In this document: positions 8,710 through 64,000 of the stretch, piece after piece | Numbering within the stretch: the stretch's first letter is position 1 | Layout: every line of letters begins with the position of its first letter | Assembly: GCA_001800245.1 (NCBI GenBank) | Contig: MGVA01000028.1 | Location: forward strand, 22,678-86,677 | DNA length: 64,000 bases | Direction of reading: 5' to 3' | Source of the DNA: Elusimicrobia bacterium RIFOXYA12_FULL_51_18 | Lineage (GTDB): Bacteria > Elusimicrobiota > Elusimicrobia > Elusimicrobiales > UBA9959 | Program-made: the position numbers and the translations under genes | Notes under the pieces: model-generated | Seen by the model: the letters and a program-made list of their open reading frames with translations, nothing else | The model's database searches: none | Told to the model about the DNA's origin: nothing

Positions 8710-8727
8710 AAGGACCAGAGGAATTTA

Positions 8728-9471: not shown

Positions 9472-9510
9472 TCAGGGAAGAGATTACACGGATCATATAG
9501 AGGAAATGGA

Positions 9511-10740: not shown

Positions 10741-10784
10741 CGGCGGAAAATATACTTTAGCAACAGCGTTTTTAAGGAAAATAA

Positions 10785-10815
10785 AAAGGTCCGGGCTTCC
10801 CCCGGGCCTTTTTTT
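10785..10815 (+). terminator. Rho-independent terminator of cassette 1
   Basis: AAAGGTCCGGG (10785-10795) pairs with CCCGGGCCTTT (10801-10811), 11 bp with one G-T wobble and a 5-nt loop, followed by a run of Ts to 10815. Confidence 0.93.
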
Positions 10816-11234: not shown

Positions 11235-11263
11235 TATAAACTATATAACCTTGGGGAATCCTA

Positions 11264-14755: not shown

Positions 14756-14853
14756 TCCGGAGAGCCTGGCAGATGTAGGAAAGGATGGCCGCGCTCAATT
14801 TCTTAAGTCGGAGATTCCTGTCGGTCTAGGTTTTATTTTCTCCCAAAAAACAT

Positions 14854-41210: not shown

Positions 41211-41392
41211 GCCTTGCGGAACCGCGTGATTATTGAGGGGCGGATGTAAAAAATGCGGATATCGTGCGATAAATTGTAAATCGCGCTTATGGTTTAACCT
41301 TAAATTCCGTGCGCACAAAATAGCGCTGAACTTGGCGAGTAACGTGCTTAAAGCGTATTTAAAAACATGTCCCAATCGGTTTGAGCGTTGAA

Positions 41393-44782: not shown

Positions 44783-44815
44783 CGGGACGCAATTTGAGCG
44801 CGTCGCGATTTTTTT
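44783..44815 (+). terminator. Terminator-like hairpin in the leader of cassette 2 (possible attenuator)
   Basis: CGGGACGC (44783-44790) pairs with GCGTCGCG (44800-44807), 7 of 8 bp, and is followed directly by ATTTTTTT (44808-44815). It lies between the cassette 2 promoter and the ATG at 44838, so any transcript from that promoter must read through it. An anti-terminator fold was not resolved by hand. Confidence 0.6.
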
Positions 44816-44837
44816 GATATTCAATGGGGGATTTTCC

Positions 44838-46517
44838 ATGACCTGTCAAACTATAGCGGATATGGGTCCGTTCCGGGGAGCGGTTGGCCGTCCGGGGGCC
44901 ATAGGCCCCGCCGAACCCGGCGGGCGCCGTTTTAGCCGCGGCGCTTACGCGAATATCGTTCCCGGATCCCCGTCGGTTTTTCATCGTTTTTTTTCCGTTT
45001 CAATTTCATTGTTCCTGCTTTTGGGCCTGGAAGTTTTTTCCGATGCGGCCAAGATCACAGATACCTGGGGTAAAGTGGAGGTCAAACGCCAGGGCGCCGG
45101 AGAGTGGCAGAGAGTGGAAGGTTCCGGCACGCTGAAAGCCGGGGATTCCATAAAAACCAATTGGCGCGGCAAACTTCGGATGTATCTGGAAGACGGCTCG
45201 CGTGTGGACATGGGCTCTTCCTCTTCCGTCACGCTTGACGCCGACGGAGCCGCGACTACGACTACGGTTAAGCTCGGAATGGGGTGGCTCAAGGCCTGGG
45301 TAAAAAAGGCCCAAAGAAAATTCGAGGTGCGCACCCCCAGCGCGGTCTGCGCCGTGCGCGGAACCGAATTTGAGGTGGAAACGGACGGGCGTAAAACTTC
45401 GGTAGATCTTGTAACCGGGCTGCTGGCCGTCAGTGATAACGCCGGCAACGAGTCCCTGCTTAATGCCGGACAGCATGTGAACGTGGACGAGCGGGGTATC
45501 GGTTCCGTTCAGTCTATTGAGGAAGGCCGTACCCAGCGCAGAGAGGAAAACCAGGTGGGGCTGAAGAACGAGGTCGCCCTGGATATGACTAAAGAACAGG
45601 TAATGGCCGCGGCTTCAGAGGAAATGAAGCTTGCCGAGTACCAGCAGGGCAAGAGCATGATAGACGTCTTCGGCGAGAGGGTGCGTCTGGAGCAGTATAT
45701 CGTGCGTCCCAGGGATAACCAGTTCAAGCTGGTGGTGCTGAACGACCGGAACGGCAGGTTCGACTATTTTTTCTATAAAGGCACTTTTAATACTTCCCTT
45801 CCCACCGACCTGAGCGTGGCTCTTGGACAGCTCGGGGGCTGCGCGGGCGCTCCGTGCCAATACTACATGACCTCCTACGAAACCGCCAGGTCCAATCTGA
45901 CGGACAAGGTTGAAGAGCTGGCTTCGGGCGGCCATCAGGTTAATGTGAACGCAAACGCTGTGGCCAACGACGACGTGTCCTCATATTTTGATTCTTCCCT
46001 CAACAGTTATGCTGGAGTTTCCGGCGCGTATTGGAAGACGCTCTTTGATAATTATTACATTAAATATAACGGCGTGACCTTCAATACCTGGGAACCCAAT
46101 ACGGGCGTTACCGCATACAACGGTACCCTCGGAACCGGCATACAAGCGTATTTTAAAGATGACGGCACCGAGCAGGATGCCTTGCACAAATACATAGGGG
46201 ATAACGGCGCTTTGGGCACCGCCCTTCCCGGGCAGAACTCCGACAGGAGTCCGGACGGGACGGTTTTGCACGATAAAATCAGGCTTACCTACGGTACCGG
46301 CGGCTACTGGGAACAGTACGATAACTACATCGTGAACGACGAGGGGCAGGTCGCGTCGCTGGGTGATTTCGACGGCAATCGCACGGGGGTTTCTTATAAG
46401 GAAACTCTCCTGAAATGGAATTTCGAGCAGGTGGTGACATGCAGTTTGTTCGGGGGAAGGAAGATCGATCTGGTCATTGAACCCAAGACCCTGATACAGT
46501 CGGGGCTTATAAGATAA
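44838..46517 (+). CDS. Secreted FecR-domain protein, cassette 2
   Basis: A 559-residue protein starting at the ATG at 44838, which has GGGGGA 7 bp upstream; a TTG at 44814 is in frame but sits in the T-run of the leader hairpin. The N-terminus is unusual: about 50 charged and Gly/Pro-rich residues precede the hydrophobic signal segment 'FFSVSISLFLLLGLEVFS', an extended signal peptide. The FecR domain spans about 72-200, with 'KFEVRTPSAVCAVRGTEFEV' at 161-180. Similarity to the protein at 6844-8709 extends past the FecR domain ('RVRLEQYIVRP', 'YIVNDEGQV'). No sigma factor or anti-sigma partner is close. It lies 35 bp before the barrel gene. Confidence 0.85.
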   Translation: MTCQTIADMGPFRGAVGRPGAIGPAEPGGRRFSRGAYANIVPGSPSVFHRFFSVSISLFLLLGLEVFSDAAKITDTWGKVEVKRQGAGEWQRVEGSGTLKAGDSIKTNWRGKLRMYLEDGSRVDMGSSSSVTLDADGAATTTTVKLGMGWLKAWVKKAQRKFEVRTPSAVCAVRGTEFEVETDGRKTSVDLVTGLLAVSDNAGNESLLNAGQHVNVDERGIGSVQSIEEGRTQRREENQVGLKNEVALDMTKEQVMAAASEEMKLAEYQQGKSMIDVFGERVRLEQYIVRPRDNQFKLVVLNDRNGRFDYFFYKGTFNTSLPTDLSVALGQLGGCAGAPCQYYMTSYETARSNLTDKVEELASGGHQVNVNANAVANDDVSSYFDSSLNSYAGVSGAYWKTLFDNYYIKYNGVTFNTWEPNTGVTAYNGTLGTGIQAYFKDDGTEQDALHKYIGDNGALGTALPGQNSDRSPDGTVLHDKIRLTYGTGGYWEQYDNYIVNDEGQVASLGDFDGNRTGVSYKETLLKWNFEQVVTCSLFGGRKIDLVIEPKTLIQSGLIR

Positions 46518-46552: not shown

Positions 46553-47830
46553 ATGACATTTAGCGGTACTACGGAATTTATAAGCCGGAAGAACAACAGG
46601 TTTGTTCAAAAAGCGGCCTATCTTATTGTTCTGCTGCTGGCCGCCTGCCGCCTGCCGCTTACCGCGTACGATATTACCCCTTACTACAATGCGTCCCTGA
46701 TGGGCGGGCAGTATTTTTATGAAACCAACGCAGGGGCTCTGGCCGGCAACGCTTCTTTGCTTGCCTCCGCCTCCATGAAATTATCTCCGGTGTTTACTCT
46801 TATCCCGCTCTATAGCGGCCGGTATCAGGGCGCTAAACAGGTGTCGGACCTAGCGGGCGGCGGGACGCTCTTTCAGGCGCTGATGGATCACAAAGCGGCC
46901 GTTAAAGGCGTCTATTCCGTCAGCCCTCTTTTAAAAATTAAGCCCGAGCTGGCCTTTAAGCGGGAGTACCTGAAAGAAACAAAAGATGAAGCCTGGGGCG
47001 ACGGTCTTTTTGACTATAAACGCCCCGGTTTTTCCATTGAAGGGGAATATAAATACAGCGATCCTTTCACTCTTCGCGTCGGCTACGATATTTATAATAT
47101 AAGATTCCACAATTACACATCGCTGGAGTCCCAGATCGGAGCCGTTGACGGAAGTCTTGCCAGGGAAATGGCCGGCGATCATACCCTGAATTCGATGAAT
47201 AATAATTTCTATATCGCAGGCAACGCTAAAATGCCCTGGGAGTCCCTGGGGGATGCGTCTGTCAGTTATACTATGCGTTCTTATGCCCATCAGCATGTAG
47301 TGAATGAGGCGGGGCAATTCAAGTCCGATACCAGAAGCGACAATGTGATCTCAGCCGAATTGGGCTGGCGGTTCCCCAGGAAGCTGGCAAACGGGAAAAT
47401 GATGACGCCGGGTCTGAGCCTTGCCTACGTTATGAACGGTTCGAACCAGAATAGTTATGATGCGCAGAATACCAAATTTATAAAGGACTATTACGCTTAC
47501 GGCAAGGTCAGGACCGGCCTGGACGCGTCCCTGCGGACGCCCCTGGCGGGAGAAAAGCGGTTCTGGGAAACACGGCTTGGCGTGGGGTGGGTCCGGACCG
47601 GCTATGCTGAAAGACTTGTGCAGGACGCCGCCGGACTTTATAAATCCGCCAAGATCTATATCGACGAGCTTACGGCGGCTGGTGATGTCTCTTACGACAT
47701 TGTGAAGAATTTCAAGTTGAAGGCCTCCATGCAGTACGGGCGCCAGAGTTCCAATATGAAATATGAGAAGCTTTATAAATATAGTTACGCGATGTTCAGT
47801 TATCTGATGGGGGTTACATACGAGTATTAG
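46553..47830 (+). CDS. Putative outer-membrane beta-barrel protein, cassette 2
   Basis: A 425-residue protein with an N-terminal extension before the signal segment 'AAYLIVLLLAACRLPLTA'. The body is made of amphipathic strands and ends 'YLMGVTYEY', an aromatic C-terminus typical of barrels. It is a paralogue of the protein at 9511-10740 ('TPYYNASLM', 'DEAWGDGLFDY', 'IRFHNYTSL' align with its counterparts). AGGAGG precedes the ATG. A hairpin and 93 bp separate it from the giant gene. Whether it exports or anchors the giant protein is untested. Confidence 0.8.
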   Translation: MTFSGTTEFISRKNNRFVQKAAYLIVLLLAACRLPLTAYDITPYYNASLMGGQYFYETNAGALAGNASLLASASMKLSPVFTLIPLYSGRYQGAKQVSDLAGGGTLFQALMDHKAAVKGVYSVSPLLKIKPELAFKREYLKETKDEAWGDGLFDYKRPGFSIEGEYKYSDPFTLRVGYDIYNIRFHNYTSLESQIGAVDGSLAREMAGDHTLNSMNNNFYIAGNAKMPWESLGDASVSYTMRSYAHQHVVNEAGQFKSDTRSDNVISAELGWRFPRKLANGKMMTPGLSLAYVMNGSNQNSYDAQNTKFIKDYYAYGKVRTGLDASLRTPLAGEKRFWETRLGVGWVRTGYAERLVQDAAGLYKSAKIYIDELTAAGDVSYDIVKNFKLKASMQYGRQSSNMKYEKLYKYSYAMFSYLMGVTYEY

Positions 47831-47923: not shown

Positions 47924-50900
47924 ATGACGAAAACACGCATAAATTTGTTCAGAAAATTCCTATTGGCGGCTGTTTTGGCCTTTATCCCGATACGCGCGAT
48001 GGGCGTTTGGCCCGGCAGCGCGGTAAATTATCTTCCGGGAGCCGCCGGGCAGGGCCCTGTTGATAGTTTTTATTCTATCCAGGATGAGACTGGCGGGATA
48101 TATAATGTCTGGACGGCCACCGCTCCGGCGCATCCGAACTATCATCAGGTATATGTGCAGCATATAAATATGAACGGCGTTCCGGATTGGTTTACAAGGG
48201 TTAGTACTTCGGCCAATTATCAGGATTTATATGTGGATCCTAAATTAAGCTACGATGGTCAGACTGCCCTTAACGTGGCCTGGGGAGAACACGTGGATTC
48301 AACCGCCGGATCTGCCAAGGTTATGAAAGTAAAGCGTTTTATTTCTTCCGGCAGCATAGTGTGGGGCGGTGTGGGCGGCATACAGGTATCTTCCGGTATC
48401 ATTGACGGTGGCACGATGGAGATCTCTTCCGACGGCGGACCGGTTTTTATGATGGGGTATCCGGTTGGATCGGGTCTAAAGATGGTGGTTCAGAAATTGC
48501 AGAACTCCGGAGGCGGTTGCGCCTGGCCTGGCATTGGCGATTGCGTTACCGGAGCCTCCGGAACAGAGCTGTACTCCGCGGCCAACACCGATTCTATCGG
48601 TAATGTGGCTTTAGTCCCGTCCTCTTCAGGCATGCTGATAGTAGTCTCAACGGGAGTGGTTTCCGGAGACTGGGCTATTTATGCGCATAGGTTAAACGAA
48701 ACCAACGGTTCCCCTGTATGGTCATCCACTTTGGTCTCCGGTACAGGGGCCCGTGGAGGGATCGTGAACGGTATTTCCGACGGTTCCAACGGAGCTTATA
48801 TTGTTTGGGATGATGCAAGGAGCGGTTATAAAAATGTTTACGCCACAAGAATAGACAATGACGGAGCCGTTGTAACCGGCGGCGCCTGGTCCCTGGGCGC
48901 TAATGCGGGCGTGCAGTTCACAAATTTCACCGACGATATAAATAATATGCATGTAGTCCCGACCGCAGACGGTTTCGCTCTGACATGTTCCACCGTAACA
49001 GGGCAGGACCAGCGATTCCTCTTCGGTACAATGTCCGCGTCCGGGGTTATCCTCTCCTCCGGAGTGACCGCCGGGTTGGAGCCTCTCTACTCCCAAGCGG
49101 TTTGCAGGGATAGCGCCTGTTTTGTCGCGGGTTATAAGGGCGTGCCGGAGTTTACGGCCTATGTGGCCAGGATTACTCCGGGGAACTCCGTCAGTCTGTA
49201 CCCAATGTTTGCGGGCGGGGATTTTCCGTACAATATAGCGCTGTCCTCCGTAGCCGGCGGCATCGCGGCTTCCTGGACCAGCAGCGCCGGCGCGCAATGG
49301 GCGAGGTATGCCCCCGCTACGGTTTTTGACCGGCGCCAGGTTTCGGGCTTAGTCACTTTCAGCGGCGTTTATGAGCCGAATACGGTTCTCACAGTGTGGC
49401 TCAGCACCTCGGCTGATTTTAGAGGAGTCACCGCTTCCACCCATATCCCCAACCCTTCTACTACACAGTCCTATACCATATCCGATATCCCCTCCGGGAT
49501 ATATTATATGGCCCTGACGGCGTCGTTCGACTGGCAAGTGGTTGCCTCCACCCATCCCTGGGGAGTCCTGGGCCAGCTTGGTACGCCTACGGCGGTCGAT
49601 GTCACGATCGGCGACGTTTCGGGTAATAATGTGGCGATGACCGACGGCCATGTCCAGCCGAACCCCTGGTCTCCGGAATCACAGGCGCCTTCCATAGTTT
49701 CCTGCGTGGAGAACTTCGCTAACGGCGGTTCCTGCAGGATAAACGGCAACAGCACTTACGGCAACGCTATCGCCGTGGACGGCTCCGATAATAGTTATAT
49801 CATAGGCACCAATCTGACTGACTCGGCTATTGTGAAGTATGACGCTTCGGGCGTTATCGTTTCTTCAATTACGGCTAAATACGCGGTTTTCAACGATATA
49901 AAAATAAGCCCCGTCAACGGCGATCTTTATGTGGCGGCCCAGGGCCTGGTTTCCGGGATACGCGTATTCCGTTACGCCGCTTCCAATCTTTCTTTTGTTT
50001 CCTCTATAACCGTGTCAGGATACCAGGGAGCGCGCCAGTTGGATTTCGGCGCGGACGGCGAGGTTTATGTGGTTTCCGCGGTGGATAACGGGGGTTCCTA
50101 CGGTAACGATATAAGAGTGGTCAGGCTGTCGGCTAACCTGTCTTCCGTTACCGGAGATTGGAGCGATACGTCCAACGGTCCCGATCAGGGGATCGGCATA
50201 CATGTAAGCGGGGGAGACGTTTTTGTGACGGGGTTTCAGCATCCAGTTTCAACTGATCAGGTTGTTGTCATCAGGCTGAGTACCGCTACCACCATGTCCA
50301 AGCTGGATACAGGGACGGCTGGTACGTCCCCCGTCGTTTTTGCCGAGGGGGAAGGTTTCAACCATTTCCGCGTCACTTCCGACGCCACAGGCGTTTATGC
50401 GGCTTATAGTTATCTTCTTAATACCAGCACCCAGACCGCTATATACCGCTTTGACAGGTCGAATATGTCGGCCGGATATTCGTCGGCCACCATGGCGGGC
50501 GCCGCCGCTTTCGGCGATCTTAAATCTTCCGGTTCCAAGTTTTTTGTTGTTGCGCAGTCGGATGGCAACCAGGCCCGTGTAACGCGGTACGATGCCGCAA
50601 CTTTTGCGGCGGAGGCCTCCACCCGCGCTTCGGTACCTGCCGCCTACGGCATGGCTCCCGGCGGTATGGCCTTTGGCACCGGTGGAGAGGTTTATCTGTC
50701 GGGTGCGCTGCCCGATGCCGGTGATTCTGCGAGTATCGGTATAACCAAACTTGATTCTGTTGCCGGTCCGGTTCCGGGGGAAGAGGAGCTTATTACGGTA
50801 TATGTCTCTACCGCAGACGCTTCGCCGGCCGCTTTTACAACCGGGGTGGAAGCCGCCGCCTTGAGGATGGATATCTATACCGTTTCGTCCTCAACTTCTA

Positions 50901-53900
50901 TTTCCAATGTCAGGGTAAGCGTCAATCCGAATGGCCCCTATACGCGGGCGGCCTATGTGGGTTTTTATGTGGATAGCAACCGAAACGATATCTGGGAGCC
51001 GGGAACCGACGCGCTTATTTCAAGCGCCGCCGTTACCTCGGCTTTTGTGGACCTGCCTGTGGCCGCGGGAATAATAAATAACGATCCGTACGGTTCGTTC
51101 ATTACCCTTACTCCCTCCGCTTCAGCTCTAGGTTCCAGTATAAATCTTGGCATAGATTCAACCGCCTCATTCACCGTGGGAGGCGTTATGGCGGAGCAGG
51201 CTGTGTATCCCATAAGGTCGGACGCGAGATTGGTTCAGCCCCCGGTGTCCTTCAGCGGGGGAGGGCTTAACGGGCCGAGCGCTTCGATTTTGAACGGCAC
51301 GGCTATGGATCAGGGTGTAGATGTAAAAGCCTATGGTTCAAGCGTTTATGCCATAGGTATAGCGTATCCTAACTCCGTGTTGATAAAATACAGCACTTCC
51401 ACAGGCCAGGTGGCCGCTTTGACCGGCCTTTCGGGAGTGGATTTCACGGCTTTAGCCGTGAATGCGAACGGGATTTATGTAACCGGTAAGGGCTACTATG
51501 CGCCCGGGTTCGTGACTATAAAATACGCGCATGATCTAACGATTGTTTCTTCGGTCACGCTCGCGGGGGCTTCCAGCGCCTACGGTATAACTCTGGATGG
51601 CGCCGGCAGGGTATATGTTATCGGGGACAATGCCGGAGAGGGCGGGAGCAATAACGATTACAAAATAGTCGAATACAATTCCGATCTGGTCCAGCAGGGC
51701 GCGGCTCATATCTGGAACGCGGGCGGAGTTGACTATGGCAAGGGTATAGCCGTATCCGACGACGGTTCTCTTATTTATGCGACCGGCCTTTCGCTTATGG
51801 GCGGAGCCACATATTACGCCACCGCTAAATTCGACGGAGCTTTTGTATTCGTTTCTTCAACCGCTTATCCGGGTTATGCGGACGATCATATTGATACGGT
51901 CGACATAGTGCAGAATAGCACCAGCGGCGCCGTTTATTTGGCCGGTTCCGCTAACCACGAGGCGATGCTGCTTGCCAAATATAATTCCAATCTGGTGCTG
52001 CAGTCCACCGCCGGGGTCTACAGCCCGGCTTACGCTGTGGGCGCCGGTATCGCGCAGGATAGCGTCGGCAACGTATATATAGCCGGCGGCTATAATGCCG
52101 GCGGCGCGGCGCATGATGAGAATACGGTGGTCAAATTCAGTCCCGCCTTGGTCAGGCAGTCCAGTGCTACGACCTTTTCGGCATACGGATTTGAACCCGG
52201 TGGTCTCGCGCTGGACGGTTACGGGTATCCGTATGTGACCGGCGTGCTGTTGGTTTCCGGTTCTTCTTCCACCTGGGATATGAAAACCGTCCGGCTGGCC
52301 CAGCTTGCCGATGTGGTAGCCGCAAAGCCTTATATAACGGTAACGGTTCCTTACGGTGGGGCGGTGGATGTTTCAAGCGGCATAAGGTATATCGACATTA
52401 CATTCAGTGAGCCTGTGACCCCGGCCTCGCTTAATGCCGGCGGCGATGGTTTGTCTCCTTATCTTATGTTCAGCAAGCCGGGCGGGTATCATAACCCGAG
52501 ATTTACCGGTTTTAGCAATCTCTACGGCAATACTTACCGGATAGCTATGGTGGATGTGGATCTTGACTCCAACACCGTGTACACGGTAGAGGCCGCTAAT
52601 TTTGAAAGCGGTTCGGCAGTAGTAATGGATCCGGCTTCTTTCTCCTTCACTACAACAGGCTCCGCTCCCGCGGGGAAACCGTCCATCACCGCCACCAATC
52701 CGACCGCCGGCGCAACCGGGGTTTCCCTTGGGTTGACGGCTATAGATATAACTTTCAGCGAACCTATAGTTCTGGACGCGGGAGATATAGGCGGTAAGAT
52801 AAATCTGTTTGTCGGGGCGGAAGATCGGTACAACCTTCTCTCCACATTTACATATGTTTCAGGCAATACTTACAGGCTTGAACTTAAAAACGGGCCTCTT
52901 GCGGCCGGGACGGTTTACAGGGTTGAACTGTCTAATTTCGCTAATGAAAGCGCGGCGGTTATTGACCCGGATTCATTCAGCTTTACCACCGAAGCCGGCG
53001 CGACGACGGTGAACCTGCTGGTGCAAAATGCCGCTTCCCCTTACATGAGGTATTACAGTACCAACTCCGCTCTGAAGCTTTCCCTTTGGACGGATTCCGG
53101 CTCCTCTCAATGGTCGGCAATGACCGTCAATCTTGGAGGCACGGTCGTGCCCTGTTCCGACGTGGATGCTTTGTATGTGTACAGGGACAGCGGGGACGGG
53201 GCATATTCCGACACAAACGATTCCTATGTCGGTTATGCGTCGCCCTGTAACGGCGGTACGTTCAACTTCTATACCCCGGAGACTATAGGCGTTTCCACCA
53301 GTGTTTACTTTGTGACCGTGAGTCCCAGATCCAGCGCTATCGGCAAAACCGCGCGTCTCACTATTACAAGCACGGCCGCGTTCACTATAGGCGGTTCGGA
53401 CGTTATGCATTCGCTTACCGGCATGCCGGCTAATTCGGCCATAGCCACTGTGATGAACTATATATATGCCAGCGAAATGGGATCATATAATTACGACACC
53501 AATATTTCGGTGATAGCGGGACAGGCTTTGCAGATAAATGCGACCGGCTATTGGAATTATGACGCCACACATCAGGTGAACGCGGACGGTTCTGGCGAGT
53601 GTTCCAGTACTTGTCCTTTGCCTTCGGCCTACCGCGGAGCGCTTATAGCCCGCGGCGATTCGACTCCCTGGTTCGTGGTAGGCCGGTCCACCACTATCGT
53701 GCTCGGCTACAGCGATACGCTGCGCCTTGCGATGAACGACGACGACTATAACGATAATACCGGCATAATGATGTTTGAAAAAGCCGCCCAGGCCGTCACC
53801 AAGATCTGGACCGGAGCCGCTTGCGGAGGCGTAGGCTGCAACGAGGCCGGGAATCCCATGAACTGGCAGGGCGGAGTCCTGCCCGCCTACGGAGATAACG

Positions 53901-56900
53901 TGGTCTTCGGCGGCACCGGCGCAAAGGATTGTTTGTGGAATCTTAACATAACCGTGAACAGCCTGTATGTCTATCCGGAATACAACGGCCGTATCAGCCT
54001 GATAAATCCTCCGGGCATGAATATCAACAGGCTTGAGATAACGGACTATCTCTATATACGCGGCGGCACTTTTGACATAGCGGGCAATATCCTGGCCGCT
54101 TCTTCAATAACCGTTTCCGGCGGCGTCCTTGACCTGGGCGCCGGGCTGGGCGACTTGCAGGTAGGCCCGGGCGGCTTGAACGTTACCGGCACGGGAACGC
54201 TCGCCTTTACCGGTAATACATCCGCATCTATTGATCCGATGGCGGAGGGATATTACCCGATATCTATATTCGGCGGCACCGTGACAGTGAACGGCGCCGG
54301 CCTTCTTAATATACGTGGTTCCAACGGCATCGCAATATCCAACTCTCCGGCGCTTACGTTCAACAATGTCAGGATAATGAATCTGGCGTCCGGCGCCACC
54401 GCTCTCAGCATTACCGCGGCTTCGGGCGATTACACATTCGATAATTGGGGTTTTGATGCGTCGGTCACCAATAATGTTGGCCTGACCGGTTCCGCCATGA
54501 TTTATATGAACAACGCTTCCGGAGCTCAGATGGGGACCCCGCATGAACTTTCGGACCCGGATAACAGGATAATCTGGAATCCGGACGGCGGCGGGACCGG
54601 CAGTATCGGAGGCAACCTTAGTTATTCCGGAAATAAGACCGGAAACTATATAGTTTTTGTTACCACGAATATGACCAGTTCCAGCTTTGCCGCCATTAGC
54701 ACTTCCGCGTCAACCGGCTATTCGTTCGGAAGTCTGAAAGCTCCCGCCACTTACTATCTGTGGGCCACCAGGGACTCAAATTCTGACTATGATTATACGG
54801 CTTCCATCATGGAACCAATCGGCTGGCTGAATGCGCCGGTGTATTTATCCACTGGTGCGGCTCTTACGCGAAACATGACGCTTTTGGATACGGGGAAGAT
54901 CACAGGAACTATAGACAAGAGCGCCACTAACCAGGCCGGCATGACCATAGTGGAATTGCATACTCAGCCGCTTTCCGCCACTTCGTTGTTCGATTGGCAG
55001 GTCCTGGACCAATGGGAGTATCAATATCTGGTCGCCGCTCCGTCCGCCACCTATACCGTGCTGGCTTATATAGACGTCAACCAGAATGAACGCTTCGATC
55101 CGGCTTTTGAAAGCTCCGGTACCGCGACCGATGTGCTTATTTCAACAGGCGGGACGGTTACGAATAATATAGCCCTTAATTCCGGTTCCGTGGAGGCCGG
55201 TGGAATTGTGGGAATTTCCACCACCGCTTTCTTTGCCGGAAGTTTTATAGGCAAGACAAATTCCGCGGCTGTGATGAAGTTAGGCCTTGTTTCAAACGGC
55301 GGAGAGGCCACGGTTGGAAGTCTGAGGTTCAGCTCCATTGGAACGGCCGAAGCCGGCAAGTTCAGTCTTTCCGTTTACAAGGATGACGGCAACGGACTGT
55401 TCGATAATGATCCTTCCATACCGAATTCAACGTACAATGATATGTTGCTGGGAAACGGCTATTTCGGAGGAGTTTCTTCACAGGCCGCTATCTCATTCAC
55501 GAACGAAGTCGGACTGCTCAGCAGCGGCGCTACGCAGTATTTCTTTGTTATGCTGACGGCCACCAACCCGGTTTCAGGCTCCACCATAGGGGCCGTGCTG
55601 CTTTCTTCGGACAGCGTGGGCTTGTTGAAGGGGACTATGGCCGGTCAAGCCATATACCCGGTTTCCACGCCTCTCAGGACCGTCAGTGATTCCATAGATG
55701 TCTGGTCAACCCTTTATACGGGTGTTGACGTATATTCCGGTCAGACCATAAATATTTCCGCTTCCGGCCAGTGGCAGGTTAATGGCGTTTATGTTTATGC
55801 CACCGGCTCCGGCAGCAATATGTACAACGGCGTGTATCCGAACGCTCCCGTGGGAGCCCTGATCGCCCAGGTCGGTTATAACTCGCCTTGGTTCTATGTA
55901 GGCACTTCCACAAGTTTCGTTTATTCCGGCATGACAGGGCCTCTTATGCTGCATATGAACACCAATTATGACTTCGGTACCATGATGTGGAATTATCCCA
56001 ACGGGGTGAGCGGCCAGCTTTACGTGAATTATTCGGTGGAGGGTGACACGCACGCCGTGATTTCCGGCTTAGTCACCTACGCCGGAGGCACAAACGGCAC
56101 CATTATTGTAAATGCCGGCAGCCGCAGGCCCGATCTTAGCAGGTATGAGTGCCGGGTCATGACTCCCTCGGAAAGCTGTATGGTCGACGTTATCGTCGGG
56201 ACCCATACTATACCCAGTCCGCTTGCCGGCGGTACCAGTTATTACACTATGGGCGGCATTGAGATACCACAGGGAGATTCCGACAACGTAATTATTTCCG
56301 CTTACATTCAGGAAGATCCTTCCCAACGCGGGATCGCTCCCACGCAAGTCGGGATACGGATAGGCCAGGCTGCGACAGGCGGGGATGTTACGGTCTATTC
56401 CGGCGCGGGCACGCTGAACGGTAACATCAGCTATTCAGGCGCTCAGCAGTTCGGGAATACCGTGGTGGCTTTGTTCACCAACCTGGAAGGCGGGAACCCC
56501 GTAGTTTCCACTACGCTGGCGGAAGGAGTTTCGGCTTTCAGTATAGCTGATATACCCGGGCCGGCCCTTTATTATGTGGTCGCTTTCAGGGACTTGGATT
56601 ATGACAATAAACCCAGCGGTCCCGAACCGTTCGGATATTACGGGTCAACCGGTCCTATTTCTCTGATGAGTTCCAACGCAGTCCAGTTGAATGTGGCTTC
56701 AAACGTCGTTACAAATGTGCCGGCCACGATTAACCTGCTGGATATGGGACAGATCAACGGACGCATCGACCTTGGCAGCCTTCAATTCGGAATAAGGGTT
56801 TTGGTGCAGGCCGGTCACGGCATTCCCGGAAGTTCGTTCGTGAAAGAGAACCAGTCGGAGTACTTCGCCCAGCCTTGCTGGTGGTACGGCTGTATTAACG

Positions 56901-59900
56901 AGGTCTATTACAATGTCGGAACTTTGTCTCCGGCCGAGGATTACACGGTCGTCGCTTTCCTGGATAAAAACGGAAACAATCAGTGGGATTGCGACGCGGA
57001 AAATTGTGAAAGATTCGCTTCCAGCCGCAATAATATATCTGTGACCGCTAACGGCATGGCCCAGGCGGATATAGCGCTGACCGCCGCTCCGGTTCCCGAT
57101 ACGCCGCAATCGTTCAGCGGCACGGTCCTGAGCACGGACGTTATACTTTGGGCGTGGAACGATGTGCCGACCGAGACCAGTTACTATCTGACCACTTCCA
57201 CAGGCGGTATATTGCATGTCCTGGATGCGAACACCACCCAATACAGCGAAACAGTGGCCGGCGGGGCTAATACTATAAGTTCCGTGCGCGCCGTCAGGGC
57301 GCATAACTATGCCGGAGACAGCCCGCTTTCATCCATGATCGCGCTTTATACGAAAGCCGCCGCTCCCGAGCTTGTTGTCAACGGAGTTAGCGCCTCTGAA
57401 GTGAATCTTGGCGTTTCCAGCGCTACTAACCGTTTCGTTTTGCAAAGAAGCACCGCTATTGCCGGTGGCTATATCGTCGTTTACAGCACTTATACGGGGA
57501 CTTCTGTCACTTCACGCGTTGACGCGGGATTGACCCCCGGCACCACCTATTACTACAGGGCCTTGAACTTCAACGCCCAGAGCGTGGCAAGCGCTTATTC
57601 CGCGGTTGCGATCGCGACCACCACCGCTCCCACCGGTTATTTTATAAGGGGCACGGTCAATTATCCCGGCCTTATGACGGGCAATATAACCCTGCTGGCG
57701 TCCACGCAGGAGTTCCTGTCCAATCCCATCACGGTGGCCTTATCCGGCAATACCACGCAGGCCTATTATCTGACCGGGCTAGCCAGCAATACGTCTTATT
57801 ACATACGGGCGTTCGTGGATTATAACGCCGACAACGCCAGACAGATATACGAAGACGCCAGCGCTATTGCCGGCCCCATTTACCTTGCAGCCTCCGGTCT
57901 TTCCGGCCAGGACATAAACATTGTACGCAGCACCGCTATTCCGGCTTCTCCATCCGGACTGGTCGCTACGCCCGGCTTCCAGCGGGTGAGTCTGCAGTGG
58001 ATAGCTTCCGCCGCCTCCAATCTGATCGGTTATGAGGTTTTTAGGAGCACAAATGCGTCCTTCTCTTCGGCGGTAACAAGGGTTTCCGGAGATAGTTTTG
58101 TCACCGGCGCCTCTTTCACGGACTTTAACCCCCTGGCGGGAGTTCCGTTGTACTACAGGGTCAAGGCCGCGGATTGGGGGCGGAACCGCAGTTTGCCCGC
58201 CGCGCTTTCCTCTCCGGTCAATGTGTCCGCCGGCGGCAGTATAACCGGCACGGTCTATGCCGTGGATACCTCCACGCAGGGGCTTTATCATGTGCGCGTT
58301 TCAACCACGCCGGACGCCAATGTGCCCAGCCTTATGGATATTATGGTTTCCACCGCGCCCGCTACGTATACCGTTTCGGGTCTGCCGGACGGTTCCTATT
58401 ACGTTCGCGGATATCGCGACTTTAACAATGATTTTAAACAGGACCGCAGGCAGGAGCCTTCCGGCACTCATGGGGGCATAGCCAGGCCTTTTGATATTTA
58501 TATGACCCAGGGCAATAGTCTTACCGGCATAGATGTTAAGGTCTGCAACAGGTTGCCGCTGGCGGTGGGGGTTTCCACAAGAGTTACGATTTCAGCCACC
58601 GGCTGCGAGGCCCTGGACCGGGGTCCCGGTTATTATACCAGGGTCTACACGCTGGAGGCCGGTTACGGCGCGGGCAAGGTGCCTACAGGCTCGCAGATCA
58701 CCGTGTACGCGAACAAGACCGATCCGTTGGACGGCATAAACGACGCTTATCTGTATCTGGTGGGTCCTACCGGAGATGTCGTAGCAAGGGATGACGATAG
58801 CGGCGGGGATATGAACTCCAGGATACAATATACCCTGGACACTCCCGGAGTTTATCTTATAGAACCCACTTCCTACGCTTCCGGCCTGTCCGGAGCCCTG
58901 AACGTGGGCTTTGATGTGACAGGCGGATTCGCCGGCAGGATCTCCGGCACGCTCAGTTACTCCGGTTCTATGACCGGGCCTTCGGTCGTGCAGATTTACG
59001 AAACTCTGACGGCTAATTCATGGCCGGTAATGATGTCCTCCACCTCGGTTTCGGATTTTGAGATCATAGGGCTCAGGGACGGGAATTTCTATCTCAAGGC
59101 GTTCAAGGACGTCAACGGTAACGGGGTCCAGGACTCCTTCGAACCGTACGGCGTTTACGGCGGCACTACGGCCGTTCAGTTTTCTGTAAGCGGCGGCGTG
59201 ACAAGCGCGTCGCTTGCCATAACGCTGGCGGAGCCTGCGGTCGGTTCGGTGTCCGGAAATCTATTTTATAACGGCGGGCGGACCGGTAATATCAGAATAG
59301 AGGCGGCAAGGCAGCGCGGCAGCGACCAGTACGATCTGGAAGTGGTGAAATTCTCCACTGTGACGCGCGGAAATGAAACCGTGGATCAGGCATATATTCT
59401 TGACCTGCTGGCGCCCGCTACCGATTACACTATCAGGGCTTTCGTTGACGAGAACAGCAATAACCAGAAAGATGTGATGGAGCCGTTCATTTCCGCGCGT
59501 TCTATCACAGTTACCGCCAGCACCCAAACTACCGGGGTTAACCTGAACATCGTAAATCCGGGCAGTGGAGGAGTCGGCAACTCTATCCTGAGCGGCGCGA
59601 TCACCTACACTCCGATTCCTGGCCAGAACTATATTTCAACCGGCAATATCTGGGTAGGCTGGGCAAGCGACCAGAGCTTTGAGAACATCTTGTATTCGCA
59701 GGTGGTTTCAACGTTTACCCAATATGCTTCCTCCACCGCGTGGACCTATTCCAAGAGCGATGTAATGGGCGGGGCCACCTATTATATGGCTTCGTTCCTG
59801 GATCTCAACGGCAACGGTCAGCCGGATGATAGGAACGGCGAACCGATGGCTATGTATTCGATCGATGGGGAGATGGCTCCTGTATCTGTGCCTACCTCAT

Positions 59901-62900
59901 CGACCGTGGTCAGGAATCTAGCTCTTACCCCTCCTTCAACCGGCTATCTCAGCGGTGTTGTGCATTATTACGGCGCTATGACGGGGTCCGCTAAAGTCAG
60001 CGCGTGGAACCAATCCTGCGAGAACACTTCCGAACAGAAGGATTGTTCCGCTGAAAACTACTTCGCTATTATCAACGGAGTTACGGATTACCCTTTCACG
60101 CTGCGTTTCCTGAATCCGACCACAAGCTACCAGTTGTCGTCCGTTATCGATCTGAACGGTAATCAGATGACGGATCCGGGCGAGCCGAACGCTTATCTTC
60201 CCGGCTACATTGTGAGCGGTTCCACTACCGCAGCGCTCACTATCATGGATCCGGGCCAGATGGCCGGCGGGAATATAGGCGAGATCCGCGGCATCGTCAC
60301 TTACGGCGGACATCAGGGCGGGGATAAGATAGTAAGGCTGTTCCGCGGCGGTTTCTACGGGGCTCCGGTTCAGACCATGAATATAAACGCCGGCTGCCTC
60401 GGCAATTCCTGCAGCTTCGCTATCAGCGGCTTGTCTTACGCCGCCGATTACTATGTGGACGCTTTTGTGGACTCCAGCTTCAACGGGATGTTTGAGCCGG
60501 CTTTTGAGCCGCACGGCGGCATAACATCGGCTATAAGTGTATCCCAGGCCGTGCCGCAGTCGCGCAATAATTACATGACCCTGGAAGATCCGGGAACGGG
60601 CGCCGATATTCCGACCGGCAGCAATCTGCTTTCCGGAATGGTTAGCGTACAGGGCGGCACTCCGTCCGGCACCGTGCGCGTACAGCTGTTCAGGTTCGTA
60701 AGCACGGTAAGCGTGATGGAAGTACCTATAAGGGTGGCAACCTACCCGTATGTATCCTCCGCGAATCAAACCCCGATAAGTTATTCGTTCGATAATCTGC
60801 CCAGCGACGGCGGCGCCAGGTATATCGCGCAGGCTTATGTGGATTCCAACTCCAACTTCACTCCGGACAGGAACGAGGCCTGGGGGCAGACCAAAGCCCT
60901 GAACCAGGGAATTTCAACCTCGGATCCGGCGGAGCAGAAGAACTTCTCCGTCTGCGCCAGGACTTCCATTGACCAGGGACAGAACCTGAACGGATCGCTG
61001 GAAACTTCCGATTGCGTGAGCTCGGACAGGGGCCAGGCGTCGGCTTTCGTGGACTACTATTCCTTCGGCGGCCGCGCCGGAGACATAGTCACGCTGGAAA
61101 TGACAGGGACCGGGTTCTCGGACACCTATCTTTATCTGTACGGCCCGTCCATGCGTAGTACCGAGGCTTTTACCAGTTATAATCTGGCCGCTTTTGATGA
61201 CGATGGCGGCGGTAATTACAATTCCAAGATAAACGGCTATACGCTTACCGCCGACGGCATATATACTATAGGCGCCGCTTCGTACGGCAATAACATAACC
61301 GGCGCTTATACTTTGTCTATGCGCGTTTCCGGCGGGACCAACGGTTCGATAGCCGGAACCGTCCGTTACAACGGCACACAGGGCGGCAATATCAACGTGG
61401 GCCTGTTCAACTCTAATCCCATGGAAGCGCAGAACGTGAACTCTATCATGGGTGCATCCATGCAGGTTCCGGGTGCGTTCCTGTTCGGCGATCTGCCCAG
61501 CGGAACCAGTTATTACATAGCCGGTTTCGTGGATGTCAATGGGAACAACTCCCCCGATCAGGGAGAGGACTTCGGGATGTATCCCAATATTATCACGCTC
61601 AGAGCCGGCCAGAACGTCACCGGGACGCTGCTGGAAATAAATCATAGCACCGACGTGGTCTTCGTGGGCGGGGCCGGCCAGGGAACCATTTCCGGCGCCA
61701 TAAGTTATACCGGTATCTCCACCGCGACATCTCTGGTCATAGAGATGTGGAATACCGCCACGTTCAGGGGCACTCCCATCGGTATACGGACCATGCAGCT
61801 CACCGGCGAATGGCCGGTAAATTATGATCTTCAGGTGCCCGGAGACCAGACCTATTATCTTAAGGCGTTCCTTGACGCCAATAATAACAGGATGCCCGAA
61901 CCCAGCGAAGCTAAAGGCGCTTATACTCCTAACAATGAGGGGCCTGAACCTATCTATGTCGGTTCGGCGGCTTATATCACGGATCGTAACTTCACGCTGT
62001 ATGACCCCGGTCAGACATTAGCGGGCGGCGCCCAGGGCGTGTCCGGAGAAGGCTGGGCCTCGGTTCTTCCTTCGTTGGTTGCGGCCGGCAGCCAGTTCAC
62101 GTCCACTGTGACCGTGCGCGTAACCGGTCTTGGTGAAGGCGGGGTAGTCATGGTCGGTATGCCCAACAATCTTTATAGTTCCCTGCAGACGGGCTGCTCC
62201 GGGTGTCCCGGATATGTTCAGGTCAGTTCGGACGGGACGCATTATAGCGCGGCGCAGCTTATCTCAAATAACGCGCAATATCGTGTGCCGATGGGCCAGA
62301 GCCTGGCGGCCGGCGCTTCCGTATACTTTGCGATAAATAATCTGTACGCGCCGTGCCAGGGAGGCATGACCGGCCAGCAGTCCGATAACAGGCTTGTGTT
62401 CCACGTAGGCACTTCCAGCAACGCTTTCACAGGGCCCCAGCCGCTAGTCAGCGGCGAGCCTACGGCCGTGCTGGGGGCGGGCGCTCCCCAGAATCTGAGT
62501 TTCCGTCTGGCCGATAATATGAACGGCGCCAATATGGCCGTTCCCAACGGCGAGGTTACCCCCATGCTGGCCGAAGCGAGGGATAATTGTTGGAATCTCG
62601 CTCCGATGTCCTCGGTTTATATCGCGACCGTAAGCGCCTATTTTTACAACATGGCCACCTACGGTTATGATAACGACGCGACGGTCAAATTCTCGACATG
62701 GAATGCCGAAGCGGATTCTGTTACAGCTACGAGCGCGACCGTGCGTTTTGAGGCTGACAGTTCCACCGGGGTCTTCTATGTTAAGCCGACGGCCCAGGGC
62801 TATAGGAACATAGGTCTGTCGTACGATCTCGCTTGGTCCAACACGTTCTATATGGGCGTGCAGGTTATGGCCGGAGGGGGTATCAGCGGCGCGAACGTTT

Positions 62901-64000
62901 CCACCGGCGCCTATAACAACCTGTCGGCCAGTTCCATGACCGTGACCATAACCCCCAACGGCGACGGAAATGCGGACAGGGCGTATGTCAACTTTATCAT
63001 GGGCGACGCGAATATGGGCTGGCATGTGCTGGTTTCCTCCAGGCCTTTCAGAACGGGCGTGTCCCCGACTCCGGTCTGGGAGACCTGGGGCTGGGGCCAG
63101 CCGAATCCGGGCCAGATATTCTGGGAAGGCAGATATAATCCGTGGATGAACTTCGGCGGCGTGGTTCCGACAGGGGCCTACTTCGTCAGAATAGAGGCCG
63201 GCAGTCTTAGGAACGATACCCTCAGGATAAATGTAGTGGTTCCCCAGGTTTCAGGCCAGGTCACCGACGCCGGAACCAGTCCTCAGAGGCCGCTTGAAGG
63301 TGTGATGGTGAATACGTTCGGCGCTTTCGGCTGGGGCCAGGCCACCACCGATTCCAACGGTAATTTCTCCATCCCCGGTCTCGCGGCAGGCCAGTATAAC
63401 TTCCAGTTCAGCAAGGAAGAGTACGGCATGGTGAGCTCTCAAACGGTAGTCGGAGTAAACGGCGCCACGGTTAACGCCAGCATGCGGCGCGCGCCCGCGC
63501 TTGTGATTATTCCTTCGCTGGGCAACGGCACTACCCAGCAATATGACCAATGGGGCTGGATAAACGTTCATACCTCGGATTGGAGCCGCGTCTATAACGG
63601 CAGCCTCAGAGTGCAGGCCGGTACCACCACTATCGACGACGGCGGAAGATGGGACGCGTCCACGAACCAGTTCGTTACCCGCAGGAGGATAAGGTTCGAT
63701 GTCGAAGCGGCGACGTATACGGTGGAGGCTGAGTTGACCGGTTACGGCCGGGTAAGTTCCACGGTTTATGTCGGTTCTTCAGGACTTGAATTGACTCTTC
63801 CTTCTTTCGTCCGCAAAGCCAATTTGTCCGGCCTTGTGAGACTGCCGGTCGGCGCGCCTAACACGACCGGCGTCTGGATCTCCGTCAACGCCCTGCCCGT
63901 GGTTCTTTCCAGTTCCATAGCGGGCGGCTGGGGCGGCATCTGGCTTAACCAGGGAGTGACTTCCGGTACTTACAATATATTCGGCGTTGACTCCGGGAGT
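47924..64000 (+). CDS. Giant secreted multidomain repeat protein (5' part; continues beyond the window)
   Basis: One reading frame without a stop from 47924 to the window edge, at least 5,359 codons. A start at 47894 is also possible; 47924 has an AGGGTGA site and begins the signal peptide 'FLLAAVLAFIPIRAMG'. By nucleotide position: propeller-like repeats 48060-49320; carboxypeptidase-regulatory-like 49340-49660; propellers 49680-50760 and 51240-52310; two Big_5-type Ig-like domains 52320-53000; PA-IL-lectin-like domains about 53490-53790 and 55690-56040; beta-helix-like stretch 53800-54600; about fifteen modules with Asp/Asn loops 54600-62010; fibronectin III-like 57076-57620 and 57940-58230; PPC-like 58590-58935 and 60945-61330; FlgD-Ig-like 62890-63240; carboxypeptidase-regulatory-like 63240-63495. 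Probably cell-surface or extracellular. No enzyme domain seen so far; the C-terminus and any anchor lie outside. Confidence 0.93.
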   Translation, partial: MTKTRINLFRKFLLAAVLAFIPIRAMGVWPGSAVNYLPGAAGQGPVDSFYSIQDETGGIYNVWTATAPAHPNYHQVYVQHINMNGVPDWFTRVSTSANYQDLYVDPKLSYDGQTALNVAWGEHVDSTAGSAKVMKVKRFISSGSIVWGGVGGIQVSSGIIDGGTMEISSDGGPVFMMGYPVGSGLKMVVQKLQNSGGGCAWPGIGDCVTGASGTELYSAANTDSIGNVALVPSSSGMLIVVSTGVVSGDWAIYAHRLNETNGSPVWSSTLVSGTGARGGIVNGISDGSNGAYIVWDDARSGYKNVYATRIDNDGAVVTGGAWSLGANAGVQFTNFTDDINNMHVVPTADGFALTCSTVTGQDQRFLFGTMSASGVILSSGVTAGLEPLYSQAVCRDSACFVAGYKGVPEFTAYVARITPGNSVSLYPMFAGGDFPYNIALSSVAGGIAASWTSSAGAQWARYAPATVFDRRQVSGLVTFSGVYEPNTVLTVWLSTSADFRGVTASTHIPNPSTTQSYTISDIPSGIYYMALTASFDWQVVASTHPWGVLGQLGTPTAVDVTIGDVSGNNVAMTDGHVQPNPWSPESQAPSIVSCVENFANGGSCRINGNSTYGNAIAVDGSDNSYIIGTNLTDSAIVKYDASGVIVSSITAKYAVFNDIKISPVNGDLYVAAQGLVSGIRVFRYAASNLSFVSSITVSGYQGARQLDFGADGEVYVVSAVDNGGSYGNDIRVVRLSANLSSVTGDWSDTSNGPDQGIGIHVSGGDVFVTGFQHPVSTDQVVVIRLSTATTMSKLDTGTAGTSPVVFAEGEGFNHFRVTSDATGVYAAYSYLLNTSTQTAIYRFDRSNMSAGYSSATMAGAAAFGDLKSSGSKFFVVAQSDGNQARVTRYDAATFAAEASTRASVPAAYGMAPGGMAFGTGGEVYLSGALPDAGDSASIGITKLDSVAGPVPGEEELITVYVSTADASPAAFTTGVEAAALRMDIYTVSSSTSISNVRVSVNPNGPYTRAAYVGFYVDSNRNDIWEPGTDALISSAAVTSAFVDLPVAAGIINNDPYGSFITLTPSASALGSSINLGIDSTASFTVGGVMAEQAVYPIRSDARLVQPPVSFSGGGLNGPSASILNGTAMDQGVDVKAYGSSVYAIGIAYPNSVLIKYSTSTGQVAALTGLSGVDFTALAVNANGIYVTGKGYYAPGFVTIKYAHDLTIVSSVTLAGASSAYGITLDGAGRVYVIGDNAGEGGSNNDYKIVEYNSDLVQQGAAHIWNAGGVDYGKGIAVSDDGSLIYATGLSLMGGATYYATAKFDGAFVFVSSTAYPGYADDHIDTVDIVQNSTSGAVYLAGSANHEAMLLAKYNSNLVLQSTAGVYSPAYAVGAGIAQDSVGNVYIAGGYNAGGAAHDENTVVKFSPALVRQSSATTFSAYGFEPGGLALDGYGYPYVTGVLLVSGSSSTWDMKTVRLAQLADVVAAKPYITVTVPYGGAVDVSSGIRYIDITFSEPVTPASLNAGGDGLSPYLMFSKPGGYHNPRFTGFSNLYGNTYRIAMVDVDLDSNTVYTVEAANFESGSAVVMDPASFSFTTTGSAPAGKPSITATNPTAGATGVSLGLTAIDITFSEPIVLDAGDIGGKINLFVGAEDRYNLLSTFTYVSGNTYRLELKNGPLAAGTVYRVELSNFANESAAVIDPDSFSFTTEAGATTVNLLVQNAASPYMRYYSTNSALKLSLWTDSGSSQWSAMTVNLGGTVVPCSDVDALYVYRDSGDGAYSDTNDSYVGYASPCNGGTFNFYTPETIGVSTSVYFVTVSPRSSAIGKTARLTITSTAAFTIGGSDVMHSLTGMPANSAIATVMNYIYASEMGSYNYDTNISVIAGQALQINATGYWNYDATHQVNADGSGECSSTCPLPSAYRGALIARGDSTPWFVVGRSTTIVLGYSDTLRLAMNDDDYNDNTGIMMFEKAAQAVTKIWTGAACGGVGCNEAGNPMNWQGGVLPAYGDNVVFGGTGAKDCLWNLNITVNSLYVYPEYNGRISLINPPGMNINRLEITDYLYIRGGTFDIAGNILAASSITVSGGVLDLGAGLGDLQVGPGGLNVTGTGTLAFTGNTSASIDPMAEGYYPISIFGGTVTVNGAGLLNIRGSNGIAISNSPALTFNNVRIMNLASGATALSITAASGDYTFDNWGFDASVTNNVGLTGSAMIYMNNASGAQMGTPHELSDPDNRIIWNPDGGGTGSIGGNLSYSGNKTGNYIVFVTTNMTSSSFAAISTSASTGYSFGSLKAPATYYLWATRDSNSDYDYTASIMEPIGWLNAPVYLSTGAALTRNMTLLDTGKITGTIDKSATNQAGMTIVELHTQPLSATSLFDWQVLDQWEYQYLVAAPSATYTVLAYIDVNQNERFDPAFESSGTATDVLISTGGTVTNNIALNSGSVEAGGIVGISTTAFFAGSFIGKTNSAAVMKLGLVSNGGEATVGSLRFSSIGTAEAGKFSLSVYKDDGNGLFDNDPSIPNSTYNDMLLGNGYFGGVSSQAAISFTNEVGLLSSGATQYFFVMLTATNPVSGSTIGAVLLSSDSVGLLKGTMAGQAIYPVSTPLRTVSDSIDVWSTLYTGVDVYSGQTINISASGQWQVNGVYVYATGSGSNMYNGVYPNAPVGALIAQVGYNSPWFYVGTSTSFVYSGMTGPLMLHMNTNYDFGTMMWNYPNGVSGQLYVNYSVEGDTHAVISGLVTYAGGTNGTIIVNAGSRRPDLSRYECRVMTPSESCMVDVIVGTHTIPSPLAGGTSYYTMGGIEIPQGDSDNVIISAYIQEDPSQRGIAPTQVGIRIGQAATGGDVTVYSGAGTLNGNISYSGAQQFGNTVVALFTNLEGGNPVVSTTLAEGVSAFSIADIPGPALYYVVAFRDLDYDNKPSGPEPFGYYGSTGPISLMSSNAVQLNVASNVVTNVPATINLLDMGQINGRIDLGSLQFGIRVLVQAGHGIPGSSFVKENQSEYFAQPCWWYGCINEVYYNVGTLSPAEDYTVVAFLDKNGNNQWDCDAENCERFASSRNNISVTANGMAQADIALTAAPVPDTPQSFSGTVLSTDVILWAWNDVPTETSYYLTTSTGGILHVLDANTTQYSETVAGGANTISSVRAVRAHNYAGDSPLSSMIALYTKAAAPELVVNGVSASEVNLGVSSATNRFVLQRSTAIAGGYIVVYSTYTGTSVTSRVDAGLTPGTTYYYRALNFNAQSVASAYSAVAIATTTAPTGYFIRGTVNYPGLMTGNITLLASTQEFLSNPITVALSGNTTQAYYLTGLASNTSYYIRAFVDYNADNARQIYEDASAIAGPIYLAASGLSGQDINIVRSTAIPASPSGLVATPGFQRVSLQWIASAASNLIGYEVFRSTNASFSSAVTRVSGDSFVTGASFTDFNPLAGVPLYYRVKAADWGRNRSLPAALSSPVNVSAGGSITGTVYAVDTSTQGLYHVRVSTTPDANVPSLMDIMVSTAPATYTVSGLPDGSYYVRGYRDFNNDFKQDRRQEPSGTHGGIARPFDIYMTQGNSLTGIDVKVCNRLPLAVGVSTRVTISATGCEALDRGPGYYTRVYTLEAGYGAGKVPTGSQITVYANKTDPLDGINDAYLYLVGPTGDVVARDDDSGGDMNSRIQYTLDTPGVYLIEPTSYASGLSGALNVGFDVTGGFAGRISGTLSYSGSMTGPSVVQIYETLTANSWPVMMSSTSVSDFEIIGLRDGNFYLKAFKDVNGNGVQDSFEPYGVYGGTTAVQFSVSGGVTSASLAITLAEPAVGSVSGNLFYNGGRTGNIRIEAARQRGSDQYDLEVVKFSTVTRGNETVDQAYILDLLAPATDYTIRAFVDENSNNQKDVMEPFISARSITVTASTQTTGVNLNIVNPGSGGVGNSILSGAITYTPIPGQNYISTGNIWVGWASDQSFENILYSQVVSTFTQYASSTAWTYSKSDVMGGATYYMASFLDLNGNGQPDDRNGEPMAMYSIDGEMAPVSVPTSSTVVRNLALTPPSTGYLSGVVHYYGAMTGSAKVSAWNQSCENTSEQKDCSAENYFAIINGVTDYPFTLRFLNPTTSYQLSSVIDLNGNQMTDPGEPNAYLPGYIVSGSTTAALTIMDPGQMAGGNIGEIRGIVTYGGHQGGDKIVRLFRGGFYGAPVQTMNINAGCLGNSCSFAISGLSYAADYYVDAFVDSSFNGMFEPAFEPHGGITSAISVSQAVPQSRNNYMTLEDPGTGADIPTGSNLLSGMVSVQGGTPSGTVRVQLFRFVSTVSVMEVPIRVATYPYVSSANQTPISYSFDNLPSDGGARYIAQAYVDSNSNFTPDRNEAWGQTKALNQGISTSDPAEQKNFSVCARTSIDQGQNLNGSLETSDCVSSDRGQASAFVDYYSFGGRAGDIVTLEMTGTGFSDTYLYLYGPSMRSTEAFTSYNLAAFDDDGGGNYNSKINGYTLTADGIYTIGAASYGNNITGAYTLSMRVSGGTNGSIAGTVRYNGTQGGNINVGLFNSNPMEAQNVNSIMGASMQVPGAFLFGDLPSGTSYYIAGFVDVNGNNSPDQGEDFGMYPNIITLRAGQNVTGTLLEINHSTDVVFVGGAGQGTISGAISYTGISTATSLVIEMWNTATFRGTPIGIRTMQLTGEWPVNYDLQVPGDQTYYLKAFLDANNNRMPEPSEAKGAYTPNNEGPEPIYVGSAAYITDRNFTLYDPGQTLAGGAQGVSGEGWASVLPSLVAAGSQFTSTVTVRVTGLGEGGVVMVGMPNNLYSSLQTGCSGCPGYVQVSSDGTHYSAAQLISNNAQYRVPMGQSLAAGASVYFAINNLYAPCQGGMTGQQSDNRLVFHVGTSSNAFTGPQPLVSGEPTAVLGAGAPQNLSFRLADNMNGANMAVPNGEVTPMLAEARDNCWNLAPMSSVYIATVSAYFYNMATYGYDNDATVKFSTWNAEADSVTATSATVRFEADSSTGVFYVKPTAQGYRNIGLSYDLAWSNTFYMGVQVMAGGGISGANVSTGAYNNLSASSMTVTITPNGDGNADRAYVNFIMGDANMGWHVLVSSRPFRTGVSPTPVWETWGWGQPNPGQIFWEGRYNPWMNFGGVVPTGAYFVRIEAGSLRNDTLRINVVVPQVSGQVTDAGTSPQRPLEGVMVNTFGAFGWGQATTDSNGNFSIPGLAAGQYNFQFSKEEYGMVSSQTVVGVNGATVNASMRRAPALVIIPSLGNGTTQQYDQWGWINVHTSDWSRVYNGSLRVQAGTTTIDDGGRWDASTNQFVTRRRIRFDVEAATYTVEAELTGYGRVSSTVYVGSSGLELTLPSFVRKANLSGLVRLPVGAPNTTGVWISVNALPVVLSSSIAGGWGGIWLNQGVTSGTYNIFGVDSGS
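54600..62010 (+). repeat. About fifteen diverged ~110-residue beta modules within the giant gene
   Basis: Each module opens with a pattern like 'ISGTLSYSGSMTGP' and closes with 'YYV-x-AF-x-D-x-N-x-N-x-x-x-D-x-x-EP'. Openings are seen near 54604, 54899, 56058, 56411, 56756, 57650, 58245, 58943, 59250, 59590, 59948, 60290, 60630, 61351 and 61690, with a typical spacing of 300-350 bp. Example loops: 'DVNGNGVQDSFEP' (about 59107), 'DLNGNGQPDDRNGEP' (about 59800), 'DVNGNNSPDQGED' (about 61533). The copies are diverged in DNA and recognisable only as protein. Confidence 0.8.

Follow-up and report, generated by a model that had tools for sequence, protein, structure and literature searches.

A 6,764-residue gene product of an Elusimicrobiota bacterium and its proposed export by a type-IX-like route

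The stretch analysed here (the window) comprises 64,000 nucleotides of Elusimicrobia bacterium RIFOXYA12_FULL_51_18 and corresponds to positions 22678-86677 of a 182-kb contig (G000:C28) in a genome of about 2.75 Mb. Its right-hand part is occupied by one giant gene, which we discuss as a candidate cargo of a secretion route resembling the type IX secretion system (T9SS). The frame is open from an ATG at 47894 to the end of the window (5,369 codons). A sequence-only reading of the window had described it as a single uninterrupted gene running off the right edge, with a product of more than 550 kDa, and had pointed to the adjoining contig sequence for the stop and for a C-terminal domain, possibly a type IX signal. 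All of these expectations were borne out. In extended coordinates, which continue the window numbering rightward, the gene ends at 68218 (C28:90895), and the full-length product of 6,764 amino acids (aa) has a molecular weight of 709.9 kDa and an isoelectric point of 4.6. It terminates in a domain of the T9SS C-terminal domain (CTD)/FlgD Ig-like family. The ATG at 47924 is preferred to that at 47894 as the start, because GGGTGA lies about 7 nt upstream of it and the codons after it encode a putative Sec signal peptide (MTKTRINLFRKFLLAAVLAFIPIRAMG, with typical n, h and c regions, judged by eye).

The giant open frame is confirmed to be a real gene. The chance of an open run this long is about 10^-117 at the given base composition, and the remaining frames contain 80-408 stops. 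The GC content at third codon positions (GC3, 0.64) exceeds that at first and second positions (GC1 and GC2) along the whole gene, the composition of which is even. Comparison with a congener over 1,091 codons gave a dN/dS of 0.11, showing that the gene is under purifying selection. No tandem repeats were found at the DNA level within the gene, a search of Rfam returned no match, and a scan for promoters and terminators around its junction with the downstream PorV-family gene yielded no excess over shuffled sequences.

This downstream gene follows the giant after a gap of about 110 bp. Its product matches the PorV of the SprA complex in the PDB (1e-9) and lies above the cut-off of the NF033709 subfamily, while remaining below the cut-offs of the equivalog PorV and PorQ models. 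Genes for a FecR-domain protein and an outer-membrane beta-barrel protein lie upstream of the giant. Twelve orthologous loci were found in the named genome collection, eleven of them in metagenome-assembled genomes (MAGs) labelled Elusimicrobia or Elusimicrobiota and one labelled merely “bacterium”. A PorV-family gene stands next to the giant in all ten loci with a complete CTD end and a downstream gene; of the other two, L068 also has this gene, with a PorV frame that continues beyond the contig edge, and L075 is cut off before reaching the CTD. All loci long enough to show it carry the FecR, barrel, giant and PorV-family genes together, in the order giant-PorV-FecR-barrel in three loci and FecR-barrel-giant-PorV otherwise. 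Because the four genes stay together despite the rearranged order, this conserved module argues for a joint function.

The giant is collinear over aa 1717-6761 with orthologs in independently assembled MAGs of more distant groundwater Elusimicrobiota (5,045 aa aligned, 32-34% identity). Its C-terminal 2,290 aa are also conserved at about 40% identity as a gene of about 2,450 aa in several sister genera, and one congener carries this core on a partial contig at 78% identity. In the genomes with the giant orthologs, nothing matched the first 1,716 aa or so; this part is similar to modules of a paralog in another relative, the frame of which spans 8,028 aa. Given the collinear distant giants, the N-terminal part unmatched in them and the short sister form, the gene is old, varies at its N-terminal end and is shortened in some genera. 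The short form had suggested a fusion or chimera arising in this genus, which the collinear orthologs rule out. An assembly chimera or a fusion of adjacent genes, with which the short sister version and the unmatched N-terminal part would agree, is highly improbable: the collinear giants exclude a stop, frameshift or misassembly, the objections that the sequence-only reading had foreseen, for aa 1717-6764, and the even composition and raised GC3 extend throughout the gene. In one locus (L031), the core gene is present as two overlapping frames (7201-10116 and 10065-14771), possibly a frameshift, and in another (L030) the core gene is divided where the sequence has a run of N.

The product is a mosaic of beta modules (Table 1) and probably a surface protein, as had been proposed from the sequence. 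Among the modules named at that time, the propellers (SBBP) and the Ig-like domains (Big_5) are supported, whereas both PPC-like domains are weak (23-24 bits, cut-off 25.9). The “lectin-like” module lacks a family match and corresponds to an internally duplicated domain, and the “calcium loop” reduces to a D-x-N-x-N-x-x-x-D pattern within about 15 DUF2141-like repeats, without family support. The architecture, then taken as unrecognised, is not unique: orthologs, and relatives that are larger still, are spread across Elusimicrobiota. A long beta region separates the carboxypeptidase-regulatory (CarboxypepD_reg)/TTR-like domains from the CTD. The module types suggest that the protein probably serves as an adhesin or scaffold; for predation or sheath formation, also considered earlier, there is no evidence here.

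Table 1 Features of the giant gene and its neighbourhood (window numbering; “extended” positions lie beyond the window).
Feature	Position	Strand	Support or remark
FecR-domain protein, conserved module member	44814..46517	+	PF04773 E=2.6e-16; synteny
Outer-membrane beta-barrel protein, conserved module member	46553..47830	+	AlphaFold2 pLDDT 79.5 and barrel matches; synteny
Giant gene, in-window part	47924..64000, continues to extended 68218	+	6,764 aa
Putative Sec-type signal peptide, aa 1-28	47924..48007	+	by eye
N-terminal repetitive beta domain, aa 38-357	48035..48994	+	three similar copies in relative's giant paralog (L035)
Two propeller-like regions, SBBP repeats, ~aa 600-1050 and 1100-1461	49721..52306	+	PF06739; paralog matches
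Two bacterial Ig-like Big_5 domains, aa 1468-1577 and 1585-1690	52325..52993	+	PF13205 E=3.6e-17
Duplicated beta domain copy 1, aa 1841-1960 (formerly “lectin-like”)	53444..53803	+	internal duplication; no Pfam match
Module aa 1962-2186	53807..54481	+	also fused to upstream-barrel homolog in related genomes
Array region, 14 of ~15 DUF2141-like repeats (~80 aa each), aa 2230-4667	54611..61924	+	internal hidden Markov model; PF09912
Duplicated beta domain copy 2, aa 2596-2690	55709..55993	+	internal duplication
PPC-like domain 1, aa 3575-3659	58646..58900	+	below Pfam cut-off
PPC-like domain 2, aa 4396-4461	61109..61306	+	below Pfam cut-off
Conserved C-terminal core, aa 4475-6764, in-window start	61346..64000	+	found alone, as a gene of ~2,450 aa, in several sister genera
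Carboxypeptidase-regulatory/TTR-like domain, aa 5110-5194	63251..63505	+	PF13620 E=1.1e-12
C-terminal FlgD_ig/T9SS-CTD-like domain, last ~100 residues	~extended 67841-68215	+	PF13860 39.8 bits, cut-off 27
PorV/PorQ-family gene directly downstream of giant, outside window	extended 68328-69287	+	NF033709 162 bits, cut-off 90

Twelve CTDs were identified in this genome. A profile built from them matched, among solved structures, the CTDs of PorZ (1.4e-10) and PorU (9.6e-9), followed by FlgD (1.5e-6). TIGR04183, the model for T9SS type A, and the CTD of PorU each matched all twelve (E<=0.01), and PF18962 matched nine. The twelve do not form an independent sample, since PF13860 or the PorU model had served to find most of them and a model seeded from the giant to confirm them. 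The type B model TIGR04131 gave no match to the CTD of the giant at E<=0.01, although four of the twelve do match it. In an AlphaFold2 model, the CTD of an ortholog (predicted local distance difference test score, pLDDT, 85) is nearly all beta and Ig-like, and its top PDB match is PorZ, with a modest template modelling (TM) score of 0.50.

These domains are closely associated with PorV-family genes. In this genome, all eight proteins ending in FlgD_ig are followed directly downstream by a PorV-family gene on the same strand. Across five genomes, such a gene follows the CTD in 29 of 35 cases above the cut-off (37 of 50 overall), with a chance expectation of about 0.4% each. The number of PorV-family genes per genome is 5-34 in this family and 2-6 in a sister family of small genomes. 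In Bacteroidota, type A CTDs all use one PorV, and type B CTDs have neighbouring cognate SprF-like partners (PMC12618676). The pairing seen here is thus a type-A-like signal with type-B-like genetics. Two CTD proteins of this genome, on G000:C19 (L083) and G000:C3 (L084), are without an adjacent PorV-family gene and are possible users of a shared barrel.

A candidate translocon is also encoded. Weak matches to Pfam SprA_N in two of 81 related genomes led to a protein of about 1,800 aa that is present in 80 of the 81, including this genome (C31:35056-40197). All 14 aligned members match the Sov/SprA model TIGR04189 (best 2.1e-44). A PDB search with a single sequence missed SprA, and a profile search found it at 9.5e-22 in collinear blocks. 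By these profile matches, the protein is clearly a divergent SprA/Sov homolog.

Several observations weigh against a type-IX-like route. The CTD of the giant itself scored 20.3 bits against TIGR04183 (cut-off 23), and the SprA-like proteins reach 151 bits with TIGR04189 against a cut-off of 200. The SprA-like gene is also found throughout the sister family, which has few CTD and PorV-family genes, and could thus have a different role. FlgD_ig occurs as a flagellar domain too, and barrels of the UPF0164/PorV family are not confined to T9SS. The catalytic domain of PorU (Peptidase_C25) gave no match in 51-61 genomes and no homolog of the GldM motor was found, both in searches without a positive control; matches to the full-length PorU model were rejected as PorU, since they covered the CTD part alone. 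The giant could be a surface protein exported by unrelated means, its FlgD-type Ig domain being just structural and the adjacent barrel a fatty-acid or porin-type channel. The wide distribution of FlgD_ig, with matches in genomes lacking T9SS, the overlap of the PorV family with UPF0164 and FadL-like barrels, and the failure to find PorU and GldM would all fit such an explanation. We consider it unlikely: the domain lies at the very C-terminal end, its genome-wide profile is closer to the CTDs of PorZ and PorU than to FlgD, CTD and PorV-family genes adjoin far more often than chance predicts, and a SprA homolog is present. We strongly infer that export proceeds through a type-IX-like route.

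The giant is likely to be a surface-displayed beta-mosaic adhesin or scaffold that follows a divergent form of this route, with one shuttle or anchor per cargo. The N-terminal signal peptide would direct Sec export into the periplasm. The C-terminal Ig-like domain, a relative of the T9SS type A CTD, would then be recognised, and by homology the protein would pass through a SprA/Sov-like outer-membrane translocon encoded elsewhere. The PorV/PorQ-family barrel encoded downstream would capture the CTD and, by analogy with PorZ-PorQ, remain on the uncleaved domain as its dedicated anchor in stoichiometric amount. Assembly, anchoring or signalling may be assisted by the FecR-domain protein and the other outer-membrane barrel, as their conserved neighbourhood suggests. 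More speculatively, the repeat chain of several thousand residues might reach outward and bind a surface or other cells.

A canonical T9SS would act differently after translocation: the CTD would be cleaved, the cargo attached covalently to lipopolysaccharide by an undetected divergent sortase, and PorV recycled as a shuttle. The presence of CTD, PorV and SprA homologs would agree with this mode, but it is improbable given the negative Peptidase_C25 search described above and the approximately 20 PorV-family copies, many beside single cargos, which point to stoichiometric partners rather than to one recycled shuttle. Dedicated anchoring of the giant invites a wider and more tentative proposal, namely that Elusimicrobiota might possess a T9SS branch in which numerous cargos, among them giants of 5,000-16,000 aa, have their own PorV/PorQ-family barrel as a permanent anchor and neither the PorU sortase nor the GldLM motor of Bacteroidota takes part.

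SprB of Flavobacterium johnsoniae, a T9SS type B cargo, is about 6,500 aa long. The SprB-SprF pair resembles the present locus in that a giant repetitive adhesin is exported by T9SS and its cognate outer-membrane shuttle is encoded directly downstream (PMC12618676, PMC12635249), the likeness being one of architecture and gene order. Unlike in that pair, the CTD here is type-A/FlgD-like, the partner belongs to the PorV/PorQ instead of the PorP/SprF family, and GldM was not found by our search without a positive control. In Porphyromonas gingivalis (PorZ-PorQ and PorU-PorV), PorZ similarly combines beta-propellers with an uncleaved CTD, and a PorV/PorQ-family barrel keeps it on the surface (PMC5562754, PMC8545088), and the PorZ and PorU CTDs are the best structural relatives of those found here. 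The present system differs from these pairs in its many cargos, most with their own barrel, in frames of up to more than 10,000 aa and in the phylum.

Outside Bacteroidota, T9SS genes are reported from a small number of related groups, Fibrobacterota among them. The system has been called specific to Bacteroidetes (PMC7463736), and type IX secretion in Elusimicrobiota would extend it past the phylum to which such reviews assign it and would help to date its origin. No publication tying Elusimicrobiota to type IX secretion was found in a literature search that left subscription journals largely outside its coverage. Proteins of more than 5,000 aa, the size class of the giant, are known from Elusimicrobiota, where they are frequent (PMC11573180), and from the similarly rich Omnitrophota (PMC10066038), so that size alone is not new. 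The new element is the probable export route: those surveys gave no function or secretion route for the Elusimicrobiota proteins, and the family described here is linked to a type-IX-like one. Export of the SprA/PorV type would provide a testable mechanism for these so far unexplained outliers, and it suggests that anchoring is cargo-specific, in contrast to Bacteroidota with their one recycled PorV.

In relatives, FlgD_ig/CTD-like domains occur in still larger open frames, at G014:C54:24898 (16,223 aa), G013:C10:32156 (10,805 aa), G012:C6:189680 (13,077 aa) and G002:C11:39408 (17,613 aa); the frames of G014 and G013 are each followed immediately by a PorV-family gene. In the sister family (G049-G080, genomes of about 1.3-1.8 Mb), the universal SprA-like gene is accompanied by few CTD proteins and, where searched, by the 2-6 PorV-family genes given above. 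Upstream of the four-gene module and without a Pfam match, positions 41381-44668 of the window encode a predicted membrane/coiled-coil protein of 1,095 aa.
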